From positions 2,170,001 to 2,234,000 of the forward strand of contig NZ_LT629710.1 of assembly GCF_900104535.1 (NCBI RefSeq): a stretch of DNA of 64,000 nt, read 5' to 3'. The translations under genes were made by a program, and so were the position numbers. This document shows positions 38,148-43,240 of this stretch, piece after piece (the first letter of the stretch is position 1; every line of letters begins with the position of its first letter). This stretch comes from Nakamurella panacisegetis. GTDB taxonomy: Bacteria; Actinomycetota; Actinomycetes; Mycobacteriales; Nakamurellaceae. The notes under the pieces are model-generated. The model did no database searches, was not told where the DNA came from, and was given only the letters and a program-made list of their open reading frames with translations.

Positions 38148-40520
38148 TCAGTTGGTCAACAGCTGGTAGTCGGGATTGGCGATGACGTACCCGGCGTCCT
38201 GCTGGAGCGAACGGCCCTGGACCCGGAGCAGCCGGCCCGGTTCGATTCCGGCGACGGTGCGCCGTCCGTAGAACTGAACCGTGAGATTGCCGGTCGAGTC
38301 GGCGATCTCGCAGACGAAGGTCGGGCTGTCGCCGACGCAGCCGACCCTGACCGTCCGCACCCGTCCCTGGACGTTGCAGGAATCGCCGGACACCAGGTCG
38401 CGGATCGGGACCGCACCGGCCGGCGGTTCGGGCGCGGCGTACTTCAGGATCGCGGTCCGGGTCGACCCGGTCGGGCGGTCGGCCAACACCGCGGTCACCG
38501 GTCGCGCCGGTGGCTCCGGGAGATCGGCTCGCCGATCCTCCTGCATCGAGGTGATCTTGGCGTTCGTGTCGTAGGGAATGATCGTGGCCGTGGCGTTGGG
38601 AATTCGGCTGATCAACCGCGCGAGATGGTCTGCCGTCCGGTCGTGCAGCAGGCGGCCGAGCATGGTGGCGTAGCTGCGTCGCGGCAACAACACCGTCACC
38701 TCGGTGCGGGGCCTGGCCTCTCTTGCGATCATCTCCAGCGTGGCCCGGCCCAGGCGCCGATCAGGGCAGTCGACCAGTTCCAGGGGGACGATCTGGGCGG
38801 CTCGCTGCCACTTCTTCGAGAGCCGATCGGCGTGCGCGCTGTCGAGCACGAAATGCACGGCACGGAGCGTGCTCGGACGCAGGCTCTGCCCGTACCGAAG
38901 CGCCTCGACCGAAGCCAGATCGAGGGCGTCGACGAAGACCAGCACCGTGTGGTGCGAGTACTTGGTGCCCGCCGAGAGCCGTTCGGAGTCGAGGTCGCGC
39001 AGCACCTCGGCCTCCGTCCGGTACTCGCGATTGAGTCGGATCAGCGCGAACACCAGTACCGGGAACAGGATCACCACCACCCAGGCGCCCTCGCTGAACT
39101 TCACCACCGCGAAGATCAGAACCACGATCAGCGACGTGGTGCCGGCGGCCACGTTGAGCGCGATCTTGCGCCGCTGGCCCGGACCGCCGTGGGTCCGAAA
39201 GTACTTGGCCATGCCGAAACCGGCCATGGTGAACCCGGTGAAGACGCCGATCGCGTAGAGCGGGACCAGGGCGTCCAGCTTGCCGTCGGTGGCGACCACC
39301 AGGACCAGCGCCACCGCCGTGAGCACCATGATCGCGTTGGAGAACACCAGCCGATGCCCGCGCTTGCGGAGCTGGCGAGGCAGGAACGCGTCGTCGGCGA
39401 CGAAGCTGGCCAGGAACGGGAAGCCGTTGAAGCTGGTGTTGCCGCCGGTGTACAGGATGATCGCGGTGGCCGTCTGCATGACCCCGAACAGGATGTTGCC
39501 GACCACCCCGTGCCCGAACACCAGGCGGGCTTCCTGGCTGATCACCGACGGGAACCCGTCGGCGTACGGCGTGGCGTGGGTGAAGTGGGCCAGCAGGGAG
39601 ACCCCACAGACCAGGAAGCCCAGAGTGCAGGCCATGACCAGCATGGCCTTCCTGGCGTTCTGCCCTTCCGGGCAGCGGAACATGCCCACCCCGTTGCTGA
39701 TGGCCTCCAGACCGGTCAGCGAGGAACCGCCGTTGGCGAAGGCACGCAACAGCACCATCGCGGTCGCGCCCATCACGAAGCCGTTGGCGTGGCCGATGTG
39801 CACGCCCTGCAAATGCGTCGGGTCGATCTGCGGCAGGTTGCCCATCAACTCCCGGATGATGCCGACGATGATCATGGAGCCGGCCACCAGAGCGAAGAAG
39901 TAGGTCGGCAGGGCGAACGCCTTGCCGGCCTCCTTGATCCCGCGGAGATTGCCCCAGCACAGCAGCAGGATCATGCCGACGTCGATCAACACCGGCCGAG
40001 GACCGACGCCGAGCACCGGGAAGGCCGACACAACGGCCACCGTCCCCGCGGCGATCTGCACGGCCACGGTCACGACGTAGTCGATCAGCAGGGCGACCGC
40101 GGCGACCTGGGCCACCCGAGGGCCGAAGTTCTCCTTGGCCACGATGTAGGACCCGCCGGCCTTGGTGTACACCGACACCACCTGGCGGTAGCAGATGGTC
40201 AACAGCACCAGGATCGCGATCACGACCCCGGTGATCGGCAGCACCAGGGTGAAGGCGCCCAGCGCGGCGTACGGGAGCAAGGCGGTCAGGATCTGCTCGG
40301 TGCCGTAGGCCGAGGACGAGATGCAGTCCGGGGCCAGGACGCCCAACGCCAGGAACTTCCCCAGCCGCTCGTGCTTGAGCTGGTCGTTGGTCAACGGCGG
40401 TCCGAGCAGGCGGCGCTTGACGCGGTAAGACAGCCGCTCTGGGAGGTTCAGGTCGGGGAGGACGGCGGAGGATGCCGCGATGGGGGTGGGTGACACGGCC
40501 CGAGTGTCGGCGGGGCACAC
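38148..40520 (-). CDS. APC-superfamily permease (KimA-like) fused to USP-like and OB-fold domains
   Basis: A 790-residue transporter. A cytosolic head (1-60) is followed by about 12 membrane segments (60-500) with the APC/KimA-like pattern DCISSSAYGTEQI, SVYTKAGGSYIVAKENFGP and LTGLEAISNGV. Next comes a cytosolic USP-like alpha/beta domain (about 515-650, HTVLVFVDALD). It ends with an OB-fold-like domain (about 703-790, CNVQGRVRTVRV and FVCEIADSTGNLTVQFYG). Relatives are K+ or amino-acid symporters. In mycobacteria an OB-fold protein gene lies near a related permease and K+ genes as a separate gene; here it is fused. The start is GTG 40520 or GTG 40496. Confidence 0.82.
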   Translation of the reverse strand: MCPADTRAVSPTPIAASSAVLPDLNLPERLSYRVKRRLLGPPLTNDQLKHERLGKFLALGVLAPDCISSSAYGTEQILTALLPYAALGAFTLVLPITGVVIAILVLLTICYRQVVSVYTKAGGSYIVAKENFGPRVAQVAAVALLIDYVVTVAVQIAAGTVAVVSAFPVLGVGPRPVLIDVGMILLLCWGNLRGIKEAGKAFALPTYFFALVAGSMIIVGIIRELMGNLPQIDPTHLQGVHIGHANGFVMGATAMVLLRAFANGGSSLTGLEAISNGVGMFRCPEGQNARKAMLVMACTLGFLVCGVSLLAHFTHATPYADGFPSVISQEARLVFGHGVVGNILFGVMQTATAIILYTGGNTSFNGFPFLASFVADDAFLPRQLRKRGHRLVFSNAIMVLTAVALVLVVATDGKLDALVPLYAIGVFTGFTMAGFGMAKYFRTHGGPGQRRKIALNVAAGTTSLIVVLIFAVVKFSEGAWVVVILFPVLVFALIRLNREYRTEAEVLRDLDSERLSAGTKYSHHTVLVFVDALDLASVEALRYGQSLRPSTLRAVHFVLDSAHADRLSKKWQRAAQIVPLELVDCPDRRLGRATLEMIAREARPRTEVTVLLPRRSYATMLGRLLHDRTADHLARLISRIPNATATIIPYDTNAKITSMQEDRRADLPEPPARPVTAVLADRPTGSTRTAILKYAAPEPPAGAVPIRDLVSGDSCNVQGRVRTVRVGCVGDSPTFVCEIADSTGNLTVQFYGRRTVAGIEPGRLLRVQGRSLQQDAGYVIANPDYQLLTN

Positions 40521-40774: not shown

Positions 40775-40904
40775 ACTTGAGATGTAAGGCAGCAAGAGCC
40801 GTCGTAACGTGTGTGGCACGCCCCACGAGGGTGGACCCGATGTCGCGGATTCGCCCGCGGAGCGAACTGGCAGATGTGGATCGGCCGCTAGTGAAAGGCT
40901 TCAG

Positions 40905-41570
40905 ATGAGTGCGGACCGGGTCCCGTTGACGAGGGAGCGAATCGTCCAGGCCGCGCTCGGGTTGGCCCGCCAGGAGGGTCTGGCCGGCGTATCCATGCGC
41001 AAGCTCGCCCAGGAACTCGGCGTCGAGGCCATGTCCCTCTACCACCACGTCCCGAACAAGCGGGCCCTGCTGGTCCTGATGGCCGATCGTTCGCTCGCCA
41101 CTCTCCGCCCGGTCGACCCGGCGACGCCGTGGACGGAGCGCCTGACCGGACTCCTCCAGGACATCTTCCACGCCGGTATGGAGAATCCGGCCATGATCTC
41201 CGTGCTCGTCGCGCAGGAACTCGACGCCCCCGACGTCAACGTCTCCGGTCGCTCGGCCATCGAGGTGATCGATTCCATCCTGGAGATCCTGGCCGATTCG
41301 GGGCTGTCGGCTCAGGATCAGGTGCACGCCTACAACTCGCTGATAAGTCTGGTCTGCGGGTTCGTGCTCGGTCCGGCGCTGGCCCTGACACCGGCTCCGC
41401 CCAACGAATCCGTCCGGGAGCAGCGCCGTCTGAGCGGCGCCGCGGTCGAGACGTTGCCGGCCCTGGCCGGCGTGCTCGACCGGCTCCATACGGCCGACGC
41501 CGCGGCCGATCTGAGGTTCAGCCTCGATCTCTACGTCGGCGCCCTCGACCGGCTGGCCGCGTCGAAGTAG
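40905..41570 (+). CDS. TetR-family regulator (TetR_C type)
   Basis: A 221-residue regulator. The N-terminal helix-turn-helix (about 10-55) includes GVSMRKLAQELGVEAMSLYHHVPNKRALL, close to the classical tetracycline-repressor subgroup. The C-terminal domain has the long helices of that group (SLVCGFVLGPALAL). It starts at ATG 40905 after aaagg. It lies 66 bases before the FAH-family gene, and probably controls that operon and its own expression. Confidence 0.85.
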   Translation: MSADRVPLTRERIVQAALGLARQEGLAGVSMRKLAQELGVEAMSLYHHVPNKRALLVLMADRSLATLRPVDPATPWTERLTGLLQDIFHAGMENPAMISVLVAQELDAPDVNVSGRSAIEVIDSILEILADSGLSAQDQVHAYNSLISLVCGFVLGPALALTPAPPNESVREQRRLSGAAVETLPALAGVLDRLHTADAAADLRFSLDLYVGALDRLAASK

Positions 41571-41636
41571 CGATGACGGCCTCGTCCGGGTGGCCTGGGC
41601 CGGTCGCCGGTCGTCGCGCCGGGTAGGTTCGCGTTC

Positions 41637-42482
41637 ATGAAGCTGCTACGGGTCGGACCCGCGGGATCGGAGATCCCCGTCGTGATGGATCGGACCGGTG
41701 CGACGTTCGACGCGTCGGGCATCACCACCGAATTCGACGGGGCGTTCTTCGCCGGCGGCGGACTGGCCCGACTGGCCGCGGCGGCCGGTCGGCTCCCCTC
41801 GATCGACATCACCGGACGCCGGCTGGGGGCGCCGATCGCGCGGCCGGGGGCGGTGCTGTGCATCGGCATGAACTACGTCGCGCACGCAGCCGAGACCGGC
41901 TCGCCCCCGCCGGCCGTACCGATCCTGTTCTACAAGTCGCCCAACACCGTGGTCGGGCCGAACGACGAGGTGCTGATCCCGCGCGGGTCGAGCAAGACCG
42001 ACTGGGAGGTGGAACTGGGCGTCGTCATCGGGTCCACCGCGCGCTACCTGCCGTCCCGGGAGGCGGCGCTGGAGTGCGTCGCCGGGTACGCGGTGTCCAA
42101 CGACGTCTCCGAGCGCGCCTTCCAACTCGAGACCAGCGGCGGGCAGTGGTCCAAGGGCAAGAGTTGCGAGACGTTCAACCCGCTCGGTCCCTACCTCGTC
42201 ACCCCGGACGAATTGGGCGACCCGCAGGACCTGCGGCTGCAGAGCTGGGTGAACGGCGAGCCGCGTCAGGATTCCAACACGTCCGACATGATCTTCGACG
42301 TCGCCGAGATCATCTATCAGCTGAGCCAGGTTCTCGTCCTGGATCCGGGGGATCTGGTCAACACCGGAACCCCGCAGGGCGTTGCCCTGTCCGGCCGATT
42401 CCCGTACCTGCAGCGGGCTGACGTGCTCGAACTTCAGATCCAGGGTCTGGGCCGGCAACGTCAGGTGATCGGCCAGGCGTGA
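41637..42482 (+). CDS. fumarylacetoacetate hydrolase-family protein
   Basis: A 281-residue FAH-fold enzyme. The metal site acidic residues are E124 and E126 in DWEVELG, with the downstream NDVSER and [18 protein letters not shown] stretches typical of the family (acylpyruvase, 2-hydroxyhepta-2,4-diene-dioate isomerase, oxaloacetate decarboxylase-like). The exact reaction, a C-C bond hydrolysis or decarboxylation of a 2-oxo acid, cannot be fixed. Its stop overlaps pxpA by 4 bases (GTGA). Confidence 0.88.
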
Positions 42483-43240
42483 TCGCGATCGATCTCAACG
42501 CCGACCTGGGCGAGAGTTTCGGGTCCTGGACGCTCGGTGACGACGACGCCATGCTCGAGGTGGTCACCAGTGCCAACGTGGCCTGCGGGTTCCACGCGGG
42601 GGACCCGTCGACGCTCTGGCGCACAGTGCACGCCGCGGCCCGGCACGGAGTGGTGGTCGGCGCCCAGGTCGGCTATCACGACCTGGCCGGTTTCGGCCGG
42701 CGGTTCATCGACGTGGAGCCGGAGGACCTGGCGGCCGACGTCATCTACCAGATCGGTGCGCTGGCCGGCGTGGCCCGGGCGGCCGGAACCCGCGTCCGGT
42801 ACGTGAAGCCCCACGGCGCGTTGTACAACGCGATCGTCGGGCACGCCGACCAGGCGGCCGCCGTGGTGGCCGCCGTGACCGCCTACGACGACGACCTGGC
42901 TGTGGTCGGACTGCCGGGGTCGGCGTTCCTGGCCGCGGCCGAGCGCGCCGGGCTGCGGACAGTGCGGGAGGCGTTCGCCGACCGGGCGTACGCGGCGGAC
43001 GGGACATTGGTGTCGCGACGTGAGCCGGGCGCGGTCCTGCACGATCCGGAAGAGATCGCGACCCGGATGGTGGACCTGGTCACGTCCGGGCGGATCCGGG
43101 CCGTCACCGGCGAATCGATTGCCGTGCAAGCCGATTCGATCTGCGTGCACGGTGATTCGGTTGGTGCGGTCGGGATCGCCCGGGCCGTGTACGAGGCGTT
43201 GACCGCAGCGGGGACCCGGGTGCGGTCGTTCGTCGAGTGA
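42479..43240 (+). CDS. pxpA: 5-oxoprolinase subunit A (LamB/YcsF family)
   Basis: A 253-residue PxpA-type protein, with [11 protein letters not shown] at the N-terminus, then [37 protein letters not shown] and SICVHGD. These are the standard LamB/YcsF blocks. In B. subtilis and E. coli, PxpA works with PxpB and PxpC in ATP-dependent opening of 5-oxoproline to glutamate; no pxpB or pxpC lies here. It starts with GTG at 42479, coupled to the FAH gene. Confidence 0.9.

Follow-up and report, generated by a model that had tools for sequence, protein, structure and literature searches.

The window analysed here, a stretch of 64,000 nucleotides from Nakamurella panacisegetis (NZ_LT629710.1, positions 2,170,001 to 2,234,000), contains a gene that raises the question of what an OB fold is doing at the end of a KimA-like potassium transporter. 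The gene (38148..40520, minus strand) is a single uninterrupted open reading frame (ORF) of 790 amino acids with a GTG start, predicted to encode a KimA-type K+/H+ symporter with a C-terminal OB domain. An earlier note on this DNA had described the product as a permease fused to USP-like and OB-fold domains, and had suggested that OB domain and permease work as one unit, perhaps with the former as a ligand-sensing gate. The answer in which we place somewhat more confidence than doubt is that the OB domain is a positive partner of the KimA-like transporter class, which has been captured covalently here.

Architecture of the fused gene

The extent and identity of the gene were assessed from its ORF, Pfam and phmmer matches, an AlphaFold model and the G+C content at third codon positions, which was 0.82-1.00 throughout the gene, including the linker and the OB domain. 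Residues 68-488 matched AA_permease_2 (Pfam, 1e-18), and residues 32-633 matched Bacillus subtilis KimA (PDB 6s3k) in a phmmer search against PDB (2e-89). KimA was also the nearest solved structure by fold as well as by sequence (8b70, Foldseek E-value of 7.5e-33). The alignment with KimA places the transport core, with 12 transmembrane (TM) segments, at residues ~30-509 (38994..40433, minus strand), and the alignment and the AlphaFold model together place a PPAT/USP-like cytosolic domain at residues ~520-655 (38556..38963, minus strand). The latter corresponds to the USP-like domain of the earlier note; such a domain is present, but it is the cytosolic domain native to KimA, and its interpretation as an addition was rejected since KimA itself has the same domain.

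In the alignment, D65, Y72, T151, T269, and Y422 of the fusion correspond to the K+ residues D36, Y43, T121, T230, and Y377 of KimA, and E272 corresponds to the proton-coupling E233; the roles of these KimA residues were taken from a published study (PMC6994465). D65, Y72, T151, T269, and E272 were the same in all 76 fusion proteins compared, and Y422 was conserved in 75 of them, with a single replacement of Y by F. From this sequence evidence, the gene appears on balance to encode a proton-coupled K+ importer of the KimA subfamily of the KUP family, K+ transport itself being the deduced part. The core would then work as B. subtilis KimA does, with K+ held by D65, Y72, T269, and Y422, H+ coupling via E272, and a domain-swapped cytosolic dimer.

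Eight loci (L056, L062, L067, L080, L081, L099, L120, and L121) carried two diverged fusion paralogues arranged tail to tail, and in most of these pairs one partner had D instead of N at the position of KimA N237. Nine of the 11 N-to-D cases at this position in the alignment came from tail-to-tail loci or the allied L076, which suggests heteromeric or specialised pairs.

The C-terminus alone had no match in Pfam, and the sole NCBIfam match was of residues 704-789 to the OB part of the RecG model (4e-5). A profile built from nine fusions likewise matched a RecG chain in PDB over the OB domain (1.9e-4). Since no helicase family was found by Pfam in the fusion protein and the similarity to RecG was confined to the OB part, assignment of the domain to RecG itself was rejected. 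AlphaFold modelling of the full protein as a monomer, with 76 natural relatives, gave a mean predicted local distance difference test score (pLDDT) of 83.5; residues 701-790 formed a five-stranded barrel with a pLDDT of 82-95, while residues 664-690 were disordered. A model of the OB domain only, with 87 relatives, had a mean pLDDT of 87 and exceeded 90 over the barrel. The strands of the domain were at 714-729, 732-740, 745-751, 764-774, 777-781, and 784-787. The top PDB matches of the OB-only model in Foldseek were the OB folds of RPA, hSSB1, Stn1/Ten1, RecG, and POT1. The earlier note's identification of a KimA-like transporter with an OB fold, and of residues 703-790 as an OB barrel, was thus borne out by the KimA match and by structure prediction.

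The RecG profile, the AlphaFold and Foldseek results, conserved motifs and substitution rates together define the OB domain as residues 703-790 (38151..38414, minus strand). It is joined to the cytosolic domain by a flexible linker of residues 656-702 (38415..38555, minus strand), which is disordered at about 664-690. In one pairwise comparison with an 82%-identical relative, the ratio of nonsynonymous to synonymous substitution rates (dN/dS) was ~0.25 for the OB domain and 0.15 for the core, indicating purifying selection on the OB domain; the ratio of ~0.51 for the linker indicates relaxed selection.

The separate OB gene and its permease

The fused copy is an extra one, as the same chromosome also has OB and KimA-like permease genes as separate units. 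These lie in the layout of the mycobacterial ceoBC locus, in the order OB gene, DUF3159 gene, two oppositely oriented TrkA-type genes, permease gene; this separate pair is the ancestral-type arrangement. The statement of the earlier note that separate OB and permease genes share a K+-linked neighbourhood in mycobacteria was supported. The standalone and fused OB sequences of N. panacisegetis matched each other in genome searches (1.6e-10 to 4e-9), and the GRR-x-V-x-G-I-x-PG turn and NP-x-Y motif of the fused domain are common to the standalone family. By these mutual matches and shared motifs at the sequence level, fused and standalone OBs are classed as one small-protein family, for which the OB tree is too short to show whether the fused members form one clade.

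Linkage between the separate genes was nearly constant. Of 57 genomes of the order, 56 had the OB gene and a KimA-like permease gene on one strand, the former lying upstream at a median distance of 2.4 kb. In other classes, 51 of 76 OB genes were within 5 kb of a listed permease, and seven of them were only 5-49 bp upstream. In one genome (G171) a gap of 10 bp separates the two genes, which adjoin two ORFs of the opposite strand that are TrkA-like by resemblance. In another (G159) the permease comes first and the separate OB gene follows with a gap of 1 bp, which is the order of the fusion. Genes of K+ signalling recurred near the relatives: a KdpD-type kinase was found in 10 fusion loci and an OmpR-type regulator in nine, and a TrkA_N/ion-channel gene adjoined OB-less mycobacterial tandems in 15 loci lacking the fusion. 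A Streptomyces synteny study has also placed an OB-fold cluster with trkA and kdpDE (PMC13118837). These recurring neighbours support the K+ reading.

Published genetics of the separate pair point in the same direction. In a transposon sequencing (Tn-seq) study of the survival of M. smegmatis in benzyl alcohol, only three genes were over-represented, namely the OB-fold gene MSMEG_2768, the amino acid permease gene MSMEG_2772, and one unknown gene (PMC10547480). Since trkB is MSMEG_2769 and trkA is MSMEG_2771 (PMC5401905), the first two flank trkB/trkA and occupy the OB and permease positions of the conserved locus; they were equated with the two families by annotation and position. Insertions in the OB gene are unlikely to act on the permease through polarity, since TrkA-type genes of opposite orientation lie between the two in a mycobacterial relative. 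Loss of the OB gene and loss of the permease gene both favour survival in benzyl alcohol, and this equal direction suggests that the OB protein helps the permease and does not block it. For dibucaine, a passage of another study names the permease but not the OB gene (PMC10127668). Rifampicin selection gave 11 mutations in an OB-fold gene that lies two tags from trkB, versus one without the drug; for trkB itself the counts were four versus none, and for the K+ channel gene mchK eight versus none (PMC10433840). The near-constant linkage, the direct abutment in other classes and the shared Tn-seq phenotype all support the proposal that OB and permease work as one unit.

Distribution and origin of the fusion

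The same full-length architecture was found at 40-82% identity in more than 80 loci across Actinomycetota, and full-length fusions occurred in about 60 named genomes. Eight further full-length copies were found within the order, and in a sample of 397 genomes spread evenly over the phylum 15 carried the fusion, N. panacisegetis included. The hosts include Mycobacterium, Mycolicibacter, Rhodococcus, Williamsia, Amycolatopsis, Pseudonocardia, Streptomyces, Kitasatospora, Trebonia, Streptosporangiaceae, and others, as well as members of other branches of the phylum. The earlier note had called such an architecture unusual; that it is a rarity of this locus was not supported, as it is recurrent and probably of single origin. 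The note had also raised the concern that a sequencing error had removed the stop between two genes. Such an artefact of sequencing or assembly, to which we attach next to no probability, was ruled out by the full-length homologues in independently sequenced genomes and is at odds with the selection on the OB domain; moreover, the OB gene lies upstream of the permease at the separate locus of the same genome, so that reading through a missing stop there would not place the OB part last.

When the presence of the OB domain was mapped on a permease tree of 166 rows (FastTree, without bootstrap), four changes were needed, gain and loss being indistinguishable from the tree itself. The simplest reading of these sequences is that the fusion probably arose once, early, and was followed by several OB losses. 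The putative losses affect Prescottella, a tandem pair of mycobacteria, and Amycolatopsis acididurans. An OB-less relative was also found on a Streptomyces plasmid; the plasmid relatives are labelled 'APC family permease' in databases.

In A. acididurans (L087:6541-6843), a frame break detaches the OB part, reflecting either a decaying gene or an assembly error. Tandem OB-less KimA-like paralogues were seen at many mycobacterial loci (L064, L065, L068-L070, L073, L077, L079, L083, L084, L086, L089, L092, L095, L098, L101, L107, and L112), with the tandem followed by a fused copy in L070. Related permeases in L147-L156 (e.g. L151:1420-3840) have two successive KimA-type cytosolic domains and no OB domain, the duplication being confirmed by BLASTP in L151 only; in L151, L153, and L155, a separate OB gene converges into the stop of such a permease.

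No operon around the fusion was conserved across the family. In the window, genes resembling those for a TetR-type regulator, a fumarylacetoacetate hydrolase and LamB/YcsF adjoin the fusion (40809-43240); these neighbours were shared only with the closest relative (L034 of G005) and differed elsewhere. No paper on a KimA-OB fusion or on the partner hypothesis was found in the open literature, subscription literature being mostly outside the search.

Role of the OB domain

As a positive partner, a small RecG-like OB protein that accompanies actinobacterial KimA-like permeases would have been joined to the permease C-terminus via the flexible linker. It may pack onto the cytosolic domain or onto the other protomer, where it would support the activity or stability of the transporter and might be tuned by a ligand. 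Some observations weigh against this view. The OB domain was dropped at least twice (in Prescottella and in the tandem pair of mycobacteria), and the relative on the Streptomyces plasmid lacks it, so some settings can do without it. In addition, the genetic data come from the separate genes, with a permease and an OB protein that share only ~36% identity with their counterparts in the fusion, and that two genes have a phenotype in common under membrane stress is no proof of contact.

The ligand-sensing gate suggested in the earlier note is one alternative: a small nucleotide or a second messenger, bound by the OB domain, would turn transport off (or on), beside or in place of the c-di-AMP (cyclic di-AMP) site of KimA. 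In its favour, nucleotides and oligonucleotides are common ligands of OB folds, and the genome of the window has a DAC-domain c-di-AMP synthase. c-di-AMP is the known gate ligand of KimA, bound at the cytosolic domain through contacts that include R337, P479, V506, H579, N580, Q581, and S582 (PMC10284832). H626, R628, and T629 of the fusion occupy the pocket positions H579, Q581, and S582. Across the fusions, R337 and H579 are kept, while S582 is replaced by T, Q581 by R, N580 by D, and P479 by F, L, or M. The DAC domain was, however, undetectable in nine of 10 fusion genomes re-tested, each of which was 96-98% complete: seven of eight genomes of one family (f67; G223, G266, G286, G297, G405, G414, and G446), the eighth of which (G422) has the domain, and two genomes of the window's own genus (G002 and G010). 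The pocket R and H were retained in fusion genomes without a detectable synthase as well and are thus not diagnostic; moreover, the ligand-linked residues (R382 and H626) lie in the core and the cytosolic domain. The nine genomes indicate that c-di-AMP is not an obligate or general ligand of the OB domain, and its candidacy as the obligate ligand is disfavoured. Loss of the separate OB gene also mimics loss of the permease, the opposite of what is expected for an inhibitory gate, so that a purely inhibitory lid or gate fits less well than an activating or stabilising partner. The ligand-sensing gate remained unproven, and we regard it as unlikely.

A tether that binds RNA or single-stranded DNA and links the transporter to the nucleoid, mRNA or ribosomes seems very improbable to us. 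The nearest relatives by fold and sequence bind nucleic acid (the RecG wedge, RPA, SSB, and aminoacyl-tRNA synthetases), and standalone members conserve a basic GRR turn; however, the turn is weaker in fused OBs, where the second R is kept in 24%, the strongest shared positions (G, D, P, and Y) are mostly turn-like with no obvious basic or aromatic binding face, and the linkage partners are K+ genes. We also consider it improbable that the OB domain is a passive add-on which only stabilises the domain-swapped dimer or travels with the protein and has no regulatory role. Its repeated loss and the fast-evolving linker would agree with such a passenger, but purifying selection on the domain, the persistence of the fusion across the phylum and the Tn-seq phenotype of the separate OB gene argue otherwise.

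The favoured reading of a positive partner can be extended, tentatively and with more doubt than confidence, to the proposal that the KimA-type transporters of actinobacteria have a regulatory OB subunit of their own, not recognised before, which would be supplied in trans from the trk locus in most species, is covalent here, and would sense a cytosolic signal other than c-di-AMP. The trkA-adjacent OB-fold genes of mycobacteria and streptomycetes are annotated only as 'nucleic acid binding', with no assigned role, and they recur in unrelated screens such as membrane stress and rifampicin selection. For these genes the fusion yields a concrete hypothesis, namely that of a transporter and its obligate partner, and it suggests that KimA-like K+ uptake is controlled differently in Actinomycetota and Firmicutes.

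The transporter is thus of a known kind, and what is new is the fusion to an OB domain, with a possibly general consequence. KimA (YdaO), the K+/H+ symporter of B. subtilis in the KUP family (PDB 6s3k, 8b70, and 8b71), shares with the fusion the 12-TM core of the APC fold, the PPAT/USP-like cytosolic domain, all K+/H+ residues, R337 and H579. It differs in that its 607 amino acids stop after the cytosolic domain, whereas the fusion adds the linker and the OB barrel, and in that P479, N580, and Q581 of its pocket are replaced by F, D, and R in the fusion. The RecG wedge resembles the added domain in its OB fold, and the profile match between them is significant, if weak. It belongs to a DNA helicase, whereas the fusion is devoid of helicase domains and its OB partner is a transporter. 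The standalone OB proteins of the Rv2694c/MSMEG_2768 type share the motifs D-x-x-G, GRR-x-I-x-G-I-x-PG, and NP-x-Y with the fused domain, and a joint profile finds both. They are encoded by a separate gene of ~120 amino acids with its own N-terminal segment, whereas the fused OB is a C-terminal domain, and the second R of GRR has a frequency of 0.88 in standalone OBs as against 0.24 in fused ones.
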